A DNA stretch of 7,192 bases from Deltaproteobacteria bacterium (GTDB lineage Bacteria > DRYD01): assembly GCA_028276365.1 (NCBI GenBank), contig JAPYWL010000055.1, positions 1 to 7,192 on the forward strand, given 5' to 3'. The position numbers and the translations under genes are program-made. The notes under the pieces were generated by a model. That model saw only the letters and a list, made by a program, of their open reading frames with translations, did not search any database and was not told the DNA's origin. Every line of letters starts with the position of its first letter. Position 1 is the stretch's first letter. Shown one piece after another: positions 1 to 7,192 of this stretch.

Positions 1-237
1 GACAATACCCATAAAGGTAGAATAGATTTAACAGTAATAGTGGATAGGAGTATAGTGTATATAATAGAGGTGAAGGTAATAGAAAGAGAAGAGGAGAAAG
101 GTAAAGCGATAAAACAAATTCAAGAGAGGGAGTATTATAAGAAGTATATGAATTATGAGAGGGTGTATATAGTAGGAATAGAGCTAAATAGGAATAAGAA
201 GAGGATAGTGAATTATGAATATAAAAGGATGAAATAG
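1..237 (+). CDS. C-terminal part of AAA-ATPase-like / PD-(D/E)XK nuclease-like protein, cut by window edge
   Basis: The reading frame is open from base 1, so the gene starts left of the window; the GTG at 40 is an internal Val codon, not a start. The visible 78 residues match the last 78 of the complete paralogue at 3636-5162, with two differences that I can see (His for Asn and Thr for Ala near the left edge). The piece holds the nuclease-like core: GRID with Asp at visible residue 9, then a hydrophobic strand ending in EVK (Glu 23, Lys 25), the D...ExK pattern of the PDDEXK_9 family that is often fused behind an AAA-ATPase-like domain. The ATPase half is not in the window, so I cannot say whether this copy is intact. 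It ends in TAG, 25 nt before the first possible start of the next gene, which suggests one transcript. The biochemical role of this family is not established; the nuclease label rests on fold assignment and motif only. Confidence 0.88.
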   Translation, partial: DNTHKGRIDLTVIVDRSIVYIIEVKVIEREEEKGKAIKQIQEREYYKKYMNYERVYIVGIELNRNKKRIVNYEYKRMK

Positions 238-299
238 AGTATTTTTTAGTTGGATAATATTATTGATGTTGTATTCATATAATAGGTGGTATAAGGGTC

Positions 300-304
300 A
301 GGAG
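300..304 (+). promoter_or_regulatory. Ribosome binding site that favours the start at 311
   Basis: AGGAG stands 6 nt before the in-frame ATG at 311. The earlier in-frame starts, TTG at 263 and ATG at 266, have no purine-rich site at a proper distance. The same arrangement is found in copy B (site 5225-5229, ATG 5236). The site lies inside the longer reading frame, so it decides between two protein lengths but does not prove the shorter one. Confidence 0.5.
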
Positions 305-310
305 ATGAAG

Positions 311-1117
311 ATGTTAAGGACAAAGTATATATCGCCGACATTTAGGAATATGAGATATAAAGTATGGATGATAAACGATGTGATAAAGAGTAAGGGAGAG
401 TTGATATGGGGAGATGAAAAATTCAGCCCATTCCTCCCTATTGATTTAAATGTAGCAGCGCCATCCCCTTTTAAGGAGGATATATTTTTAGATAGTGATA
501 ATCAAAATAATCTATATGAGAGAGTAAAGATAGTAGTAGGGGAACCAAGTAATCCAAATCCAGATGTATTACTATATAAAAATAATACTCAATATGATAT
601 GTTAAGTCAAAAAAGTAGATATGAGAGGGATAAATTCATAGAATTTCAGGAAGCAGTGAGAAGGCAATTGAGTGTGGGCTTAGTGGAGCAGGTAAGGAGT
701 GAAATACCGATAGAAAATGGGAAGCTAGTGGAGAATGGTGGTATAAAGGAGAGTAGTTATGAAGGGATAGTGGGAAAGATAAGGGGAGTGACGTATGAGT
801 TAGTAAAGAGGTTAATAGGGTATGGAGTGATAGAAGAGGTGTATGAGGTAAGGATAAGGGATAGGGAGCTGGTTATAGAGAATAGGAAGTATATATATCA
901 TAGGGTGAGGATGACGCCAGTGTTTAAGGTGCCAAGAGAGATAAATAATAAGGCATACAAAATAATAGATGATACAGATGTAAGTTTGACAATAGTTTAT
1001 AAAATTAATTATGTCGTTAATATTGAGGCTAAGTATAGTAGGGAACAAACGGGAGTGGGAGTTACAGTGGTAGGAAACCCAGCATTGGAATTAAAAAGAA
1101 TAGGTTATGGAGAATAG
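311..1117 (+). CDS. Protein of unknown family with hypervariable middle (copy A)
   Basis: I do not recognise the family. From the ATG at 311 the protein has 268 residues. A longer form (ATG 266 or TTG 263, up to 284 residues) is possible and would begin MMLYSYNRWYKG; I prefer 311 because it has an AGGAG site. Numbered on the long form, three zones are visible by comparison with the copy at 5236-6015. Residues 1-61 (TFRNMRY, WMINDVI, LIWGDEKFSPF) are nearly identical. Residues about 63-169 are strongly diverged but still alignable (NPD.VLLY). Residues 171-254 (IRGVTY, VKRLIGYGVIEEVYEV, KVPREINNKAYKIIDD) are nearly identical. A short variable patch follows, and then a conserved GNPALELKRIGYGE end. 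No signal peptide, membrane helix or catalytic motif is seen; the C-terminal half looks rich in beta strands and basic residues. The position right behind the nuclease-like gene suggests a functional partner (inference). Confidence 0.85.
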   Translation: MLRTKYISPTFRNMRYKVWMINDVIKSKGELIWGDEKFSPFLPIDLNVAAPSPFKEDIFLDSDNQNNLYERVKIVVGEPSNPNPDVLLYKNNTQYDMLSQKSRYERDKFIEFQEAVRRQLSVGLVEQVRSEIPIENGKLVENGGIKESSYEGIVGKIRGVTYELVKRLIGYGVIEEVYEVRIRDRELVIENRKYIYHRVRMTPVFKVPREINNKAYKIIDDTDVSLTIVYKINYVVNIEAKYSREQTGVGVTVVGNPALELKRIGYGE

Positions 1118-1223
1118 AGAATAAGTAATTTTTGTTAGTTAATTTTCTACTTTTCGTTTATTATAAGAATATGTACTTTGTTGTATAATTTTTAGTTTTA
1201 AAAAAAGTAATATAAAATGGTAA

Positions 1224-2651
1224 TTAGGGATTAGTGCTGAGATTACTGGTCCAAGGGGAGGGTTGGACAGTATAAAGAGTAGTAGAAGTAGTTAAGGAAG
1301 AGGTAGATAAGGTAATAGTTTGTGTAGTAGGTAAAGTGTAAGAGGAAGAGGTTATATTAACATTAGTAGGATTATTGACGACATTAAAGATGTTGTTTTC
1401 AGTGAGATTAAATAGGTTGTTAAATTTGAGGAAGAAGACTTTATAAGAAGAAGGATTAATATCGCCAGTAAGAATAAAACTGTGATCAGGTGTTTCATAA
1501 TATTTTTGGTATTCATACATAAATAATTGGTTATTATTGGTATCTAATTCAAAGGAGCGGATGTGGTTTAAATTAGTATCAAAAATAATAAAGAGTAATT
1601 TATTGATAGAGGATTCAGATTTAGAGATACCGACAATAATTTGATTATTTATTTTGGAGATGTTAATATTCCTAATAATAGAGGAGGAGGAAAGAGAGAT
1701 TTGTTTAGAGGCAATGAGTCCAGGAGGTATGGAGATTTTATTAATATAGATGGAGTTAGAATTAATACCGTCAGCGAAATAAAGGTAATCATTGCTAGAT
1801 TCAGAGGTAATTAATGGGCTTTGATCTGTTAAGTATTCAGTAGTGAAACGTATATAGTTAGTAGGAATTTTAGTAGCAGATGTGAGATTAGATTTAGAGA
1901 TAATAAAAATACCAGTATTTAAAATAGAAGAGTTAGAATCAGCATTTACTAAAGTTCCGGATAAGTTAGTAAGAGTGGAAGAATAGAGATAAATAGTATC
2001 AGGGAAACCAGTAGAGGTAGGGTCTGTTTGATATTGCGATAGAATATTAAGATTATTATCTAAAACAAGGAGATAACCTTGGGAAGAAGGAGTATCTGCT
2101 CTAAGGGATAAGTAGATATTAGGGGTGTCAAAGATAATTCTGGGAAACATAGTATTATTGAAGAATAGCTGCTGTTGAAGAGAGAGGGAGGATTTATTGA
2201 TTTTGAGGATAGCGGAGTCATATTGCGTGCCAACATTACCGTTGAGGATATAGGCTGAAATAATCAATTCAGAGGAATTATCTAAAATATTAGTAGGAGA
2301 AACAGTTTGGTCATTACCTAATAGAGTAAAGGCGAAGGATGTAGAAAAAATAGAGGAGAAATTGGAAGATATTCTATGAATAATTAATTTACTAGCGGTA
2401 GCAGCATCGTATTGACCAAGTAAGTAATAATAGTTTCCGTCAAAGATAGAGGAATAGGATCGTTTAGTATTATCGATAGAGAGAGCGGGGTTAGAGAGGG
2501 AGGGACTGCTGGGGGGAGTAGGAGTAAAGATACCGCCGGAACCACCGCTGTTAAAGAGATTACATTCAAAGGAAAGGAAGAAGATAGTGAGGATGAAGGA
2601 GAAGATAATAGCGAGTAGAGTTTTATTGGGTTTTAAGTTGGAAGAATTCAT
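1224..2651 (-). CDS. Secreted, probably lipid-anchored seven-repeat beta-propeller-like protein (copy A, complete)
   Basis: The gene codes for 475 residues from ATG at 2651, chosen because AAGGAGG stands 7 nt upstream. Residues 1-30 form an export signal: Lys 7 and Lys 10, a hydrophobic stretch 12-28, then Cys 30. The residues before Cys (Ser-Phe-Glu) are a poor lipobox, so lipidation is plausible but not sure; an uncleaved anchor is the alternative. A flexible Gly/Ser/Pro/Thr tether follows (31-55). I then see seven similar segments, each a hydrophobic strand, a short loop, a second strand with a Lys or Asp, and a third strand: about 73-100, 127-165, 178-207, 219-262, 288-319, 336-368 and 391-417. 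This suggests a seven-bladed propeller, by pattern only. The tail (434-475) is Ser/Thr-rich and ends WTSNLSTNP, also in copy B. The gene converges on its plus-strand neighbour. Ser, Thr, Asn and Ile are abundant, in step with the pyrimidine-rich coding strand. Function and exact family are not recognised. Confidence 0.88.
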   Translation of the reverse strand: MNSSNLKPNKTLLAIIFSFILTIFFLSFECNLFNSGGSGGIFTPTPPSSPSLSNPALSIDNTKRSYSSIFDGNYYYLLGQYDAATASKLIIHRISSNFSSIFSTSFAFTLLGNDQTVSPTNILDNSSELIISAYILNGNVGTQYDSAILKINKSSLSLQQQLFFNNTMFPRIIFDTPNIYLSLRADTPSSQGYLLVLDNNLNILSQYQTDPTSTGFPDTIYLYSSTLTNLSGTLVNADSNSSILNTGIFIISKSNLTSATKIPTNYIRFTTEYLTDQSPLITSESSNDYLYFADGINSNSIYINKISIPPGLIASKQISLSSSSIIRNINISKINNQIIVGISKSESSINKLLFIIFDTNLNHIRSFELDTNNNQLFMYEYQKYYETPDHSFILTGDINPSSYKVFFLKFNNLFNLTENNIFNVVNNPTNVNITSSSYTLPTTQTITLSTSSLTTSTTLYTVQPSPWTSNLSTNP

Positions 2652-2658
2652 AAAAGCG

Positions 2659-2665
2659 CCTCCTT
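2659..2665 (-). promoter_or_regulatory. Ribosome binding site of the propeller-like lipoprotein gene
   Basis: Read on the minus strand this is AAGGAGG, 7 nt before the ATG at 2651. It is a near-perfect Shine-Dalgarno sequence and fixes the start of the gene. Confidence 0.85.
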
Positions 2666-2698
2666 TAGAATGTAATTATTAGGTGCCTACATTAAAAT

Positions 2699-2704
2699 AT
2701 TATA
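2699..2704 (-). promoter_or_regulatory. Possible -10 box of the propeller-like lipoprotein gene
   Basis: The minus strand reads TATAAT here, about 48 nt before the start codon. No good -35 box is found at 16-18 nt, but a run of nine A (minus strand, 2725-2733) lies upstream and could act as an UP-like element. A small dyad, TAGG-TG-CCTA at 2680-2689, falls just downstream of the expected transcription start. In DNA this AT-rich a TATAAT can occur by chance, so this is only a candidate. Confidence 0.35.
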
Positions 2705-2750
2705 GGTTTAAGACAAAAATCCTCTTTTTTTTTGAGTGTTTTTAATTAAG

Positions 2751-3540
2751 GGAGCCAAAGGGAACCAAAGGGAACTAAAGGAAACAATAAAGGAAACAAA
2801 AGGGAGCCAATTGAAGCAAATTGAAGCAAATTGGATCAAATTGAATCAAATTGAAGCAATTGAAAGTAATTGAAAGCAATTAAAGCTAATTTAAACCAAA
2901 TGAAAGCAAAGGAAGCCAAAGGAAGCCAAAGGAAGCTAAAGGAAGCTAAAGGAAGCTAATTGAAGTCAAATGAAATCAAATGAAGCCAAAAGAAACCAAT
3001 AGAAACCAATAGAAAGCAAATGAAACAAATTGAAGCTAATTGAAGCTAAATGAAACTAAAGGAAACCAAATGAAACCAATTAAAGTTAATTGAAGCCAAC
3101 TGAAGCCAATTGAAACCAATTGAACCAATTGAAGCAAAATCAAGCCAAATGAAGTTAATTGAAGTTAATTGAAGCCAAAGGAAGTCAAATGAAGCCAAAG
3201 GAACCTAAAGGAAACCAAAGAAACTCAAAAGAACCCAAAGGAAGCCGAATGAACCCAAAAGAACCCAAAAAAACCCAAAAGAACCCAAAAAAAACCAAAA
3301 GAACCCAAAAGAACCAAAAGAACCCAAAAGAACCAAAAGAACCCAAAAGAACCAAATTGAGATTAATTGAAATCAATTGAAGCCAAATGAACTCAATTGA
3401 AGCTAATTGAAACTAATTGAAACTAATTGAAAACAAAGGGAAGCAAATGAAAGCAATAGAAATCAATTGAAATCAAAGGAAACTAATAAGAAACCAATAG
3501 AAGTCAATTGAAACAAGTTGAAACCAAAGGAAACCAAGAG
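2751..3540. repeat. Degenerate 10-bp minisatellite, about 79 units, between divergent genes
   Basis: The stretch is built almost wholly of 10-bp units of the form (T/G/A)GAA(A/G)(C/T)(C/T)AA(A/T), such as GGAAGCCAAA and TGAAACCAAT. The phase holds over long runs (for example 2861-3120), with occasional 9-bp units that shift it, near 2851-2860 and 3121-3129. Different variants cluster locally: GGAAGCCAAA near 2911-2950, TTGAAGCAAA near 2811-2850 and GAACCCAAAA near 3250-3355. That is the pattern expected of growth by slippage or unequal exchange. The A3-A4 tracts recur once per helical turn, so curved DNA is predicted. The plus strand carries G but few T in the GAA/CCAA core, so its purine bias matches the rest of the window. 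Most frames are closed by TGA or TAA inside the units, so it is not coding. Role unknown; a spacer, curved-DNA element or protein-binding array are possibilities. Confidence 0.93.
3301..3357. repeat. Higher-order 19-bp sub-array within the minisatellite
   Basis: Here 10-bp (GAACCCAAAA) and 9-bp (GAACCAAAA) units alternate, giving a 19-bp period repeated almost without change about three times. This is the most homogeneous part of the array and probably its youngest expansion. The A4 tracts make it, with the preceding 50 bp, the strongest predicted bend. Confidence 0.75.
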
Positions 3541-3627
3541 GAATTAAAAAAAACAAAAGGAAATAAAAGGAAAAAGAGAAGAAAAAAGGAAAAGAAAAAG
3601 GGAAAAATAAAATAAGGAAGAGGAGGT
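3541..3627 (+). other. Nearly pure purine tract leading into the nuclease RBS
   Basis: Behind the minisatellite the plus strand becomes almost only A and G. Bases 3565-3607 are 43 purines without a break, and 3614-3626 are again purines ending in the AGGAGG of the nuclease gene. No -10 or -35 box for that gene is visible in this stretch. It may be a decayed continuation of the minisatellite, and it would form an unstructured, purine-rich leader in the messenger if transcription starts upstream. Confidence 0.7.
3621..3627 (+). promoter_or_regulatory. Ribosome binding site of the AAA-ATPase-like/nuclease gene
   Basis: AGGAGGT lies 8 nt before the GTG at 3636. It is a full-strength Shine-Dalgarno site and supports a GTG start, which gives the family's usual N-terminus (KKLGIGISDFKELI). 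Confidence 0.88.
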
Positions 3628-3635
3628 AATAGACG

Positions 3636-5162
3636 GTGAAGAAGTTAGGAATAGGGATAAGTGATTTTAAAGAATTAATAAAAGGAAATTACATATATGT
3701 AGATAAAACGGAGTATATATATAAGCTAATAAATAGCGGGAAGTATTATTTTTTAAGTCGTCCAAGACGTTTTGGAAAATCATTATTGCTATCAACAATT
3801 GAGTATTTATTTAGAGGAGAAAGAGAGTTATATAAGGGAATGTATATAGAAGATAAGTGGGAATGGGAAGAGACTAAGCCGGTAGTAAGGATAGATTTTG
3901 CCAAAGATATAAAAAAAAAGGAAGATTTAAAAGAGAAAATGTATCAGGAATTAAGGAAGAATTATATGTGGAATAAGTTGGAGATGCCAAAAGAGACAAG
4001 AGATGAGAGTATATTATTAGAGGAATTAATAATGAGAATAAGTGAAAGAGAGAGGAAGCAGGTGGTAGTATTAGTAGATGAATATGATAAGCCGATATTA
4101 GATGTAATAGAGGATAAAAAAGAAGCAGAAGAGGTAAGAAAAGAACTAAAAGCATTGTATTCTGTCTTAAAAGGATTAGATAGGTATATAAGGTTTGTAA
4201 TAATAACAGGAGTGAGTAAGTTTTCAAAAGTATCATTATTTAGTGGATTAAATCAGTTAAAAGATATCTCATTAGATTTAAGATATGGGAACATATGTGG
4301 ATATACGCAAGAGGAATTAGAGAAATATTTTAAGGAGTATTTAGAAGGAGTGGATTTAGAGGAAGTAAAGGAATGGTATAATGGGTATAATTTTTTAGGA
4401 GAGAGATTATACAATCCATTTGATATATTGTTGTATTTGGATAGTAAGGTGTATAAGAATTATTGGTATAAAACGGGAACGCCAAGTTTTTTAATAAAAC
4501 TAATAAAGAGTAGGAGATATGATATAACAAAATTAGAGAATATGGTAGTAAGAGAGGATATATTGGAAAAATTTGATATAGAGGAGATAAGAATAGAGGC
4601 AATAATGTATCAAACGGGATATTTGACAATAAAAGAGGTGTATAAAAAGGAATATGGAGAGGAATATAGATTAGGGTTTCCGAATAAGGAGGTAAGAATA
4701 TCGTTTAATGAGGATGTATTACCGTTGGTATTGAAAGATGAAGTAAGGGAAAATATAGCGGGTAAGATAATAGAGATATTAAAGGGAGAGAAATTAGAGG
4801 AGCTAAGAGAACAGGTAGAAGTGTTAATAAGCAATATAAGTTATGTACATTATAGGGGGGAGTCAAGTTATGTAATAGCGATATTTAGTTTATTGTATAC
4901 AACGGGATTAAATGTAATAACAGAAGATAATACAAATAAAGGTAGAATAGATTTAGCGGTAATAGTGGATAGGAGTATAGTGTATATAATAGAGGTGAAG
5001 GTAATAGAAAGAGAAGAGGAGAAAGGTAAAGCGATAAAGCAAATTCAAGAGAGGGAATACTATAAGAAGTATATGAATTATGAGAGGGTGTATATAGTAG
5101 GAATAGAGCTAAATAGGAATAAGAAGAGGATAGTGAATTATGAATATAAAAGGATGAAATAG
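3636..5162 (+). CDS. AAA-ATPase-like protein with C-terminal PD-(D/E)XK nuclease-like domain
   Basis: The protein has 508 residues, a normal full length for this family, and starts at GTG behind a strong RBS. Residues 1-210 form the AAA-ATPase-like domain (PF09820 type): GISDFKELI...YVDKT at 7-24, a Walker A-like RPRRFGKS at 42-49, a Walker B-like VVLVDEYDKPI at 144-154, and TGVSKFSKVSLFSGLNQLKDIS at 191-212. The linker carries the family marks WYNGY (247-251), YNPFDILLYL (259-268), YWYKTGTPSFLIKLI (276-290) and YQTGYL (325-330). The C-terminus is the PDDEXK_9-like domain with Asp 439, Glu 453 and Lys 455 (GRID ... IIEVK). All key residues are present, so the gene looks intact. Proteins of this kind often occur in many copies in one genome; their cellular role and substrate are not known, and DNA cleavage is an inference from the fold. 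Arg is mostly AGA/AGG, but two of the three Arg codons in the Walker A stretch are CGT. The partner gene follows after a short gap. Confidence 0.93.
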   Translation: MKKLGIGISDFKELIKGNYIYVDKTEYIYKLINSGKYYFLSRPRRFGKSLLLSTIEYLFRGERELYKGMYIEDKWEWEETKPVVRIDFAKDIKKKEDLKEKMYQELRKNYMWNKLEMPKETRDESILLEELIMRISERERKQVVVLVDEYDKPILDVIEDKKEAEEVRKELKALYSVLKGLDRYIRFVIITGVSKFSKVSLFSGLNQLKDISLDLRYGNICGYTQEELEKYFKEYLEGVDLEEVKEWYNGYNFLGERLYNPFDILLYLDSKVYKNYWYKTGTPSFLIKLIKSRRYDITKLENMVVREDILEKFDIEEIRIEAIMYQTGYLTIKEVYKKEYGEEYRLGFPNKEVRISFNEDVLPLVLKDEVRENIAGKIIEILKGEKLEELREQVEVLISNISYVHYRGESSYVIAIFSLLYTTGLNVITEDNTNKGRIDLAVIVDRSIVYIIEVKVIEREEEKGKAIKQIQEREYYKKYMNYERVYIVGIELNRNKKRIVNYEYKRMK

Positions 5163-5224
5163 AGTATTTTTTAGTTGGATAATATTATTGATGTTGTATT
5201 CATATAATAGGTGGTATAAGGGTC

Positions 5225-5229
5225 AGGAG
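5225..5229 (+). promoter_or_regulatory. Ribosome binding site that favours the start at 5236
   Basis: AGGAG, 6 nt before the ATG at 5236, is the same as at 300-304 in copy A. Bases 5163-5240 are identical in the two copies, so comparison cannot decide between this start and the upstream TTG/ATG pair at 5188-5193. Confidence 0.5.
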
Positions 5230-5235
5230 ATGAAG

Positions 5236-6015
5236 ATGTTAAGGACAAAGTATATATCGCCGACATTTAGGAATATGAGATATAATGTGTGGATGATAAA
5301 CGACGTGATAAAGAATAAAGGAGAGCTGATATGGGGAGATGAAAAATTCAGCCCATTCTTTCCTATTGATTTAGGAATATCCCCTTATACTTCTGATCCG
5401 ATCTTTATTGCTGTACGTATATCAAATTGTAATAGAATAAAACTAAAATTAGATGATATATATAATCCGGATATAGTATTATATGAACCTGGAGATACTC
5501 AGGGAAAATTATTAAGTAATGTGAATAATAACCTTAATAATTTTGGAGAATTTAAGCAAAGAGTGGGGGCTCTGTTTGCTAACCCTAACAAAGAATACTT
5601 AATGAGTCAAGTAGTTGGGAAGTTTCCGGAAGTAAATGGTGAAATATATGATGAGGGAATAAGGGAGAAGATAAGGGGAGTGACGTATCCGTTAGTAAAG
5701 AGGTTAATAGGGTATGGAGTGATAGAGGAAGTGTATGAGGTAAGGATAAGGGATAGGGAGCTGGTTATAGAGAATAGGAAGTATATATATCACAGAGTAA
5801 AGATGACGCCAGTGTTTAAGGTGCCAAGAGAGATAAATAATAAGGCATACAAAATAATAGATGATACAGATGTAAGTTTGACAATAGTTTATAAAATTAA
5901 TTATGTCGTTAATATCGACGCTCAGTACAAAAGTAATCAACAAGGGAGGATAGTTTGGGTCGAAGTAAAAGGAAATCCAGCATTAGAACTAAAAAGAATA
6001 GGATATGGAGAATAA
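5236..6015 (+). CDS. Protein of unknown family with hypervariable middle (copy B)
   Basis: This is the paralogue of 311-1117, with 259 residues from the ATG at 5236 or up to 275 from 5188. On the long numbering, residues 1-61 differ from copy A at only three places (Asn 33, Asn 43, Phe 58) and residues 160-243 at very few. Residues 63-158 are strongly diverged and 11 residues shorter in net length, yet still share NPD.VLYE and EF...V marks, so the segment evolved from a common ancestor and was not replaced by an unrelated one. The front of the variable segment (about 5360-5420) is richer in pyrimidines than its surroundings and uses a CGT Arg codon, unlike the conserved parts. The end GNPALELKRIGYGE is shared. 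It lies directly behind the intact nuclease-like gene and is likely co-transcribed with it. No known family, signal peptide or membrane segment is seen. Confidence 0.86.
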   Translation: MLRTKYISPTFRNMRYNVWMINDVIKNKGELIWGDEKFSPFFPIDLGISPYTSDPIFIAVRISNCNRIKLKLDDIYNPDIVLYEPGDTQGKLLSNVNNNLNNFGEFKQRVGALFANPNKEYLMSQVVGKFPEVNGEIYDEGIREKIRGVTYPLVKRLIGYGVIEEVYEVRIRDRELVIENRKYIYHRVKMTPVFKVPREINNKAYKIIDDTDVSLTIVYKINYVVNIDAQYKSNQQGRIVWVEVKGNPALELKRIGYGE

Positions 6016-6128
6016 AATATTAGTGTAGTTATATATATTTTTGATTACTTATTAAATAAAAACAATCTTAAGTAAAATTTTCATATGTAAAAAGATCTTA
6101 TTTTGTTTTTTTATAATTCTATAGTGAG

Positions 6129-7192
6129 TTAAGGGTTAGTGCTAAGATTACTAGTCCAGGGATAAGGTTGGACAGTATAAAGAGTAGTAGAAGGAGTTAA
6201 GGAAGAAGGAGATAGAGTAAAAGTTTGAGTAGCAGGAAGAGTATAAGAAGAAGGATTAAAAGTGATATTAGGTGAGTTATTAACATTAAAGATGTTGTTT
6301 TCAGTGAGATAAAATAGGTTGTTAAATTTTAGGAAGAAAATTTTATAAGAAGAAGGATTAAGATCGCCAGTAAGAATAAAACCATTGTCAGAGGTTTCAT
6401 GATATTTTTGAAGATGAACCATATAGAGCTGATTATTATTAATATCTAATTCAAAGGAACGAATAAAACTTAAATCTGAGGGACTAAGAATGATAAATAA
6501 TAATCTGTTAATGGAGGATTCAGATTTAGAGATACCGATAACAATTTGATTATTAATTTTGTTAATATTAATATTTCCAATAGAGGAAGAGGGAAGAGAG
6601 ATTTGAGTGGAATGAATAAGTCCAGGTGGTACAGAAATTTTATTGATATGAATAGTATTGGAATTGACGGCATCAGCAAAATAGACAAAATCATTACCGG
6701 ATTCAGTGGTAATTAAGGGATTTTGACGTATTATATAGTCAGTAGTAGGATAAGAATAGTTGAAAGGAATCTTAGTAGCAGTAGTAAGATTGGATTTAGA
6801 GATAATGATGACACCGGGATTTAGGATATTGGAGGAAGGATCTTGAGCTCCTCCAGTTAAGCATAGATTAGAGTTTGTTTGAGAGAGTAGGTAAATATTA
6901 GTAGGGTAGCCAGAGATGGATTCAGTATCAGTTTTATATTGCTCAATGATATTGAAGTTAGTATCAAGTTTAAGGAGGTAACCTTGTGAGGGAAAGGAGT
7001 CAGTAACAAGGGATAGGTAAATATGATTATTCGAATTGTCAAATAGTATAAGAGGGTATTGGGTGTTATTGAAGAAAAGATGTTGTTGAAGAGAGAGGGA
7101 GGATTTATTGATTTTGAGGATAGCGGAGTCATATTGTGTGCCAACATTAAGGTTGTGTATATAGGATGAAATAATCAATTCAGAGGAATTAT
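6129..7192 (-). CDS. Seven-repeat beta-propeller-like secreted protein (copy B), N-terminus cut by window edge
   Basis: The frame is open to the right edge, where it still reads NSSELIIS as in copy A. The TTG at 7178 is an internal Leu codon and not the start. The 354 visible residues correspond to residues 125-475 of the copy A protein, with a net gain of two codons within the aligned region. Roughly two thirds of positions look identical by eye, spread along the whole length. The best-kept parts are NVGTQYDSAILKINKSSLSLQQ, INNQ...GISKSESSIN.LLFII, SFELD.NNNQL and SSYK.FFLKFNNLF.LTENNIFNV. Six of the seven propeller-like repeats are inside the window. The Ser/Thr-rich tail again ends in WTSNLSTNP. 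The signal sequence is presumed to lie outside the window. The gene converges on the partner gene with a 113-bp spacer in which I see no clear terminator hairpin. Confidence 0.85.
   Translation of the reverse strand, partial: NSSELIISSYIHNLNVGTQYDSAILKINKSSLSLQQHLFFNNTQYPLILFDNSNNHIYLSLVTDSFPSQGYLLKLDTNFNIIEQYKTDTESISGYPTNIYLLSQTNSNLCLTGGAQDPSSNILNPGVIIISKSNLTTATKIPFNYSYPTTDYIIRQNPLITTESGNDFVYFADAVNSNTIHINKISVPPGLIHSTQISLPSSSIGNININKINNQIVIGISKSESSINRLLFIILSPSDLSFIRSFELDINNNQLYMVHLQKYHETSDNGFILTGDLNPSSYKIFFLKFNNLFYLTENNIFNVNNSPNITFNPSSYTLPATQTFTLSPSSLTPSTTLYTVQPYPWTSNLSTNP

Follow-up and report, generated by a model that had tools for sequence, protein, structure and literature searches.

Headless pseudopilin copies in a tandem DUF1703 nuclease locus: a candidate store of surface-protein variants in a deltaproteobacterium

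The systems closest to the locus described here are cassette arrays that serve surface variation and one genome rich in paralogous nucleases. Variation of pilE at the pilE/pilS locus of Neisseria requires a G-quadruplex (G4) structure (PMC3899283). The vls cassettes of Borrelia have high GC content, G-runs and a GC skew of 0.52 vs 0.18 (PMC11499132; PMC3585125); their heterogeneity is limited to variable regions, and open frames are preserved (PMC11499132). The DUF1703 nuclease architecture, including its RPRRFGKS and DEYD motifs, has been described (PMC1913061), and recombination among DUF1703 paralogues has been examined and reported in Cardinium cCpun (PMC6387759). Here, we analyze a 7192-bp stretch of deltaproteobacterial DNA (the window) in which a DUF1703-type nuclease gene, a gene of previously unknown type termed the partner, and a gene labeled 'propeller' recur in tandem.

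We consider it an even proposition that the window belongs to a pilS/vls-like tandem store that adjoins an intact pilin operon and consists of headless variant copies of a pseudopilin along with copies of another secreted protein. Headless copies coexist with an intact copy, and variation is confined to blocks with segments common to both, as in silent cassettes. The locus resembles pilE/pilS in its tandem partial copies of the type IV pilin class, in the mosaic segments held in common with the intact gene, and in the G4 motifs present. It differs in that the protein is a minor pseudopilin rather than the major pilin, and in that each unit contains a nuclease gene and an opposite-strand gene. 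Features held in common with vls are a cassette array, raised GC content, a GC skew near 0.5, block-confined variation and open frames (PMC11499132). In contrast to vls, the protein is unrelated, other genes lie between the cassettes, GC content reaches only 32%, and the skew extends to an opposite-strand gene and to nuclease clusters elsewhere.

The tandem units and the intact pseudopilin gene

The window (positions 1-7192) is the whole of contig C24 in a metagenome-assembled genome of 1.59 Mb (124 contigs, 87% complete, 2.8% contamination). The gene order is nuclease (+), partner (+), propeller (-), 10-bp array, nuclease (+), partner (+), propeller (-), with the following features:

1-237, + strand: 3' end of a DUF1703-type AAA/PD-(D/E)XK nuclease gene that the contig start cuts off, coding for nuclease residues 431-508; it closes the preceding unit and is 97% identical to 4926-5162
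239-1117, + strand: partner copy 1, a predicted 5'-truncated pseudopilin gene; homology to the C52 gene from 239, mid transmembrane segment; open reading frame (ORF) from 263
about 420-760, + strand: variable block of partner copy 1, with a second variable loop at about 1000-1060
1224-2651, - strand: copy 1 of the gene for a putatively secreted beta-rich 'propeller' protein of 475 amino acids with an N-terminal hydrophobic signal
2487-2516, + strand: G4 motif GGGGTTAGAGAGGGAGGGACTGCTGGGGGG within the propeller gene
2748-3600, no strand assigned: tandem array (~850 bp) of purine-rich repeats with a period of 10 bp and a consensus close to CAATTGAAGC, from Tandem Repeats Finder and autocorrelation
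3254-3286, - strand: G4 motif GGGTTCTTTTGGGTTTTTTTGGGTTCTTTTGGG within the array
3636-5162, + strand: nuclease gene, 508 amino acids, PF09820 and PF08011, from Pfam match and motifs
5164-6015, + strand: partner copy 2, a predicted 5'-truncated pseudopilin gene with the same junction as copy 1; ORF from 5188
6129-7190, - strand: C-terminal part of 'propeller' copy 2, with the contig end inside the gene

A sequence-only reading of this DNA had proposed a tandem duplication with a period of about 4.9 kb, and alignment bears this out. Direct repeats pair 1-300 with 4926-5225 (97% identical), 759-1058 with 5651-5950 (90%), 1224-1573 with 6129-6475 (79-83%) and 2152-2281 with 7063-7192 (92%), giving a unit spacing of 4892-4925 bp with order and strands kept in both units. 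The units align in blocks of 74-97% identity with a non-alignable stretch between them. Because they diverge at 3-60% of sites, depending on the block, the repeat as a collapsed or doubled assembly copy is ruled out, and the duplication is not the assembly error that the same reading had allowed for. That reading passed over the 10-bp array, the missing 5' end of the partner and the strand asymmetry of composition. A third unit is located on contig C62; contig C52 carries an intact relative of the partner and propeller genes.

Judged by this relative, the 'unknown partner' is a 5'-truncated GspK/PilX-like pseudopilin. The gene order on C52 (locus L044) is mnmE (-), ligT (+), prepilin P0004, prepilin P0005, partner P0001 (310 amino acids) and propeller (-). 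P0004 matches PF07963 over the cut-off (E-value 1.4e-5), and P0005 falls just under it. Intact P0001 starts with a basic leader, a Gly and a hydrophobic helix (VRGKRWERAG/IMISLALFLLVFFSWIILLMM; RGKRWERAG/IMISLALFLLVFFSWIILLMMYSYNRW), lacks Glu5, and is the third gene after two prepilin genes, which is the GspK/PilX position. Pseudopilins of the GspK/PilX type usually lack Glu5. GspH-I-J-K and PilV-W-X operons likewise combine two prepilins with a third pseudopilin that lacks Glu5, and related operons are present in the family: three-gene operons of a K-like gene and two prepilins occur elsewhere in this genome and in the same-family genomes G001 (a sister species in the same genus), G002 and G005. 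However, sequence similarity is shown for the N-terminal 60 residues only, and other operons of the family put the K-like gene first whereas the C52 operon has the partner third. A PF07963 search of the partner gave no match, while hhalign against the K-like proteins of the family gave an E-value of 1.2e-4 over residues 17-80 with a probability of 55. The AlphaFold2 model of the partner, built from window sequences only, was unusable (mean predicted local distance difference test score, pLDDT, 37). For pilus assembly, the genome carries one prepilin peptidase, PilB/GspE-type ATPases and GspF. PF07963 prepilin matches number 24 in this 1.6-Mb genome and 30 in the sister species, which is many for the genome size.

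In the two C24 copies and in the C62 copy, homology to P0001 begins at GTATTTTTTAGTTGG, in mid-helix and 1-2 bp past the nuclease stop codon; in the window copies, the leader is missing, as is half of the membrane helix. Since this junction is common to all truncated copies, one event was amplified, and its identity in all three agrees with the earlier proposal that the three genes were amplified as one unit. On C62, a 10-nt deletion shifts the helix remnant out of frame, and the 279 codons after it are open. The ORF of the truncated copies begins 25 bp behind the nuclease gene and could be co-transcribed with it.

Mosaic variation and turnover of the units

The N and C blocks of the four partner copies are conserved (nonsynonymous divergence, dN, 0.01-0.07). 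The middle block is hypervariable, with dN of up to 0.83 at a synonymous divergence (dS) of 0.64 and with in-frame length changes, and a second short variable loop is found near the C terminus. Across the first half of the variable block, the C62 copy equals the intact copy (94-100%); across the second half, C62 tracks the first window copy (C24_1) and the intact copy tracks the second (C24_2). The 45 informative sites fall in 15 runs, a clustering reached by 0 of 20,000 shuffles (p<5e-5), and identical tracts link the intact copy to C62 (25 sites, p<0.0005) and to C24_2 (21 sites, p=0.0025); with four sequences and clustered variability, these p-values are indicative only. The identical tracts look like conversion tracts. 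Blocks have been shuffled among the copies, and the intact copy takes part in this with two of the truncated ones; the frames stay open. Unequal crossing-over, which had been offered as the origin of the repeat, fits these mosaics and the collapsed units described below, as does gene conversion in a tandem array.

The propeller copies fall into two types with exchanged pieces, and the dN/dS ratio (omega) between copies, about 0.23-0.27 and staying near 0.23 along the whole gene, indicates that the gene is under purifying selection. The N-termini of the encoded proteins have no canonical lipobox (LSFE/C, LSFQ/C), and the 'lipoprotein' label they had been given is doubtful. An AlphaFold2 model from window sequences only (pLDDT 35) consists mostly of strands and does not confirm the fold label 'propeller'. 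No Pfam match was obtained for the protein, and no relatives were found in the related genomes searched.

Arrays of 10-bp repeats lie upstream of seven of the genome's 29 full nuclease genes (the window copy and six others). Pilin- or partner-derived sequence is found near six of these arrays; the seventh, on C2, is an apparent deletion derivative in which a nuclease end is fused straight to the array. On C93, a partner helix remnant is fused to the leader of the next nuclease. As their sequences read, both junctions are collapsed units. Decayed 5' fragments of the partner lie beside nuclease and array on C1, C16 and C74. In G001, ligT directly precedes a pilin gene whose counterpart on C93 sits behind two nucleases, and in this species, therefore, the cassette appears to have been inserted between these two genes, an order pieced together across contig ends. 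A 63-bp coding piece of prepilin P0004 is present within the arrays of C52, C62 and C93 or next to them (L044 10563-10625; L043 755-838; L048 14407-14469).

Strand-linked composition and the nuclease family

The GC content of the cassette is 32% vs 22-28% in most other loci. On the + strand, GC skew is mostly +0.40 to +0.77 across genes, the minus-strand propeller gene included, and four-fold degenerate sites are 72-92% purine on that strand in genes of both directions. In 118 other genes, taken as a control, the figure is 41 ± 9% (coding strand). The immediate neighbors are normal at these sites (ligT 17%, mnmE 43%, C93 pilin 36% purine). Purine and G skew spans 6263-10689 of C52 (L044) and the whole window and breaks off sharply between ligT and the first pilin of the cassette. 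In both species, clustered nucleases reach 81-95% purine at four-fold sites vs 28-70% in most dispersed copies. G4 motifs are clearly restricted to the cassettes, with 11 in 16.3 kb of cassette and 0 in 192 kb of other loci; the excess over the mean of 0.19 in block shuffles is overstated because the repeats are not independent.

By its domains and motifs, the window nuclease is a DUF1703 AAA/PD-(D/E)XK protein. It carries PF09820 AAA-ATPase_like (E-value 1.3e-61) and PF08011 PDDEXK_9 (E-value 1.7e-13), both over the cut-off, together with Walker A (RPRRFGKS), Walker B (DEYDKP) and GRIDL...EVK motifs. Among the 29 full copies in the genome, Walker A is retained in 28, DEYDKP in 24 and GRIDL...E.K in 26, and the median dN/dS over usable pairs is 0.21. 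A sequence search of the PDB with the nuclease returned chance matches only. The expansion is similar to that of Cardinium cCpun, where about 25-30 divergent DUF1703 paralogues occupy one small genome (PMC6387759); it differs in that some of the copies here are linked with a pilin cassette and with 10-bp arrays.

The copies often stand head to tail, in runs of up to five (C73; L046 7356-15983), and three head-to-tail nucleases lie beside a giant prepilin-like gene in the sister species (L081 6763-11363). Small lipoprotein-like genes (family F4, MKKWILWIIVAYIM..GC) are found beside several dispersed copies (L050, L054, L055, L060). Contigs C1 (L047) and C16 (L045) represent one chromosomal locus with trmD-like and yggU-like genes and are 92-98% identical; between these conserved flanks, their nucleases are only 77% identical. 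The pair reflects either two strains in the assembly or the duplication of a region whose nuclease site is hypervariable. We do not claim nuclease-pilin adjacency (C71, C93, and C41 and C5 of G001) as a general rule: by a rough hand count that includes partly orthologous cases, a pilin lies next to ~5 of 66 nuclease clusters vs ~2 expected.

The nuclease, partner and surface protein had also been read as a functional trio, but a partner follows only two of the 29 full nuclease copies, together with the one cut off at the window edge. Four other genomes of the family also show the nuclease expansion (39, 19, 16 and 10 matches, fragments included), and the partner is detectable in none of them. 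Elsewhere, then, the genes are mostly apart, and the claim of co-operation fails while that of joint amplification stands.

Competing explanations and significance

If the window is part of a variant store, segments of the headless copies would be copied by recombination into the intact gene, which would change an exposed part of the pilus; the propeller gene is perhaps also a recipient. The G4-prone 10-bp arrays and the G-skew would favor such recombination. The nuclease, a separately amplified family, may have been carried along by tandem duplication of one nuclease/partner junction, a step with less support, and might, or might not, contribute to DNA breakage at the cassette. Use of the copies as donors, their silence and any nuclease role are inferred. 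Several observations weigh against a variant store. The data come from one consensus genome, in which no switching is seen, and partner comparisons involve n=4 sequences (intact on C52, two on C24, one on C62). The assembly is fragmented and two strains are probably mixed in it, to judge by the single locus that C1 and C16 both carry at 92-98% identity, and some of what looks like an array could be alleles. Physical linkage of C52 to C24 and C62 is inferred (the contigs end in repeats). Unlike pilS and vls, each unit contains a nuclease and an opposite-strand gene, and the cassettes are not contiguous, with nuclease, array and propeller between partner copies. Nuclease clusters without any partner, including those of the sister species, have equal purine bias, so the bias is not peculiar to pilin cassettes. 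Propeller copies resemble whole genes under selection, and this fits expressed paralogues as well as donors. Finally, no relatives of the partner outside this genome were found in 40 related genomes, viral contigs and GTDB contigs.

The main competitor is passive amplification, in which a nuclease was joined to a copy of the pilin operon inside the pseudopilin gene and the hybrid was tandemly duplicated by unequal crossing-over between repeats, after which the copies diverge, swap tracts and disappear and play no programmed part in varying the surface. This account is a real though doubtful possibility. The one junction common to the copies, the collapsed derivatives on C2 and C93, the decayed partner fragments on C1, C16 and C74, and the tendency of the nuclease family to amplify in tandem in two species are all as it predicts; it is less easily reconciled with partner and propeller frames that are all open at dS 0.2-0.9, with most comparisons of conserved blocks giving an omega well below 1, and with divergence focused in one block rather than uniform. 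A more ambitious proposal is a new type of locus for diversifying the surface: each silent pilin cassette would have its own DUF1703 nuclease and G4-prone 10-bp array, the nuclease would start recombination, and the extreme strand-linked purine skew, which ignores gene direction, would be the mutational scar of this process; we regard this as rather improbable.

Less probable still is a locus driven by the nuclease, where DUF1703 clusters are the diversifying or mobile entity, their recombination produces the purine/G skew, and pilin genes are passengers. The contrast in purine content between clustered (81-95%) and most dispersed (28-70%) nucleases and the paralogue recombination reported in Cardinium (PMC6387759) speak for it, but the immediate non-cassette neighbors of the skewed clusters are normal in composition, and the signature also covers the C52 pilin genes, before any nuclease. 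The conflict system favored by the sequence-only reading, with the variable partner as immunity or specificity subunit of a nuclease that acts as a toxin or anti-phage effector, is very unlikely. Nuclease and partner are indeed co-directional and 25 bp apart, the partner is variable, and AAA-ATPase_like domains are known in some defense systems, PF09820 being found in RADAR, PARIS and Old-tin (PMC10952713). However, the partner derives from a pilin operon and is predicted to be a truncated pseudopilin rather than an immunity protein, its adjacency to the nuclease stems from one junction event, and PADLOC gave no match for any window protein, nor did NCBIfam. Pairing is confined to this one array, and 28 of 31 nuclease copies or ends have no partner; because almost all nuclease copies lie away from the partner, neither a general three-gene module nor a conflict system is supported.

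Most of what is known about cassette-based surface variation comes from a few pathogens, and the tandem store of pseudopilin variants proposed here would be a candidate in an uncultured lineage with a small genome. If the proposal is correct, the GC-skew and G4 marks held in common with Borrelia vls and Neisseria pilE would point to a convergent signature of programmed recombination, and the locus would offer a first setting in which to test the widely amplified, uncharacterized DUF1703 nucleases for a role in recombination.

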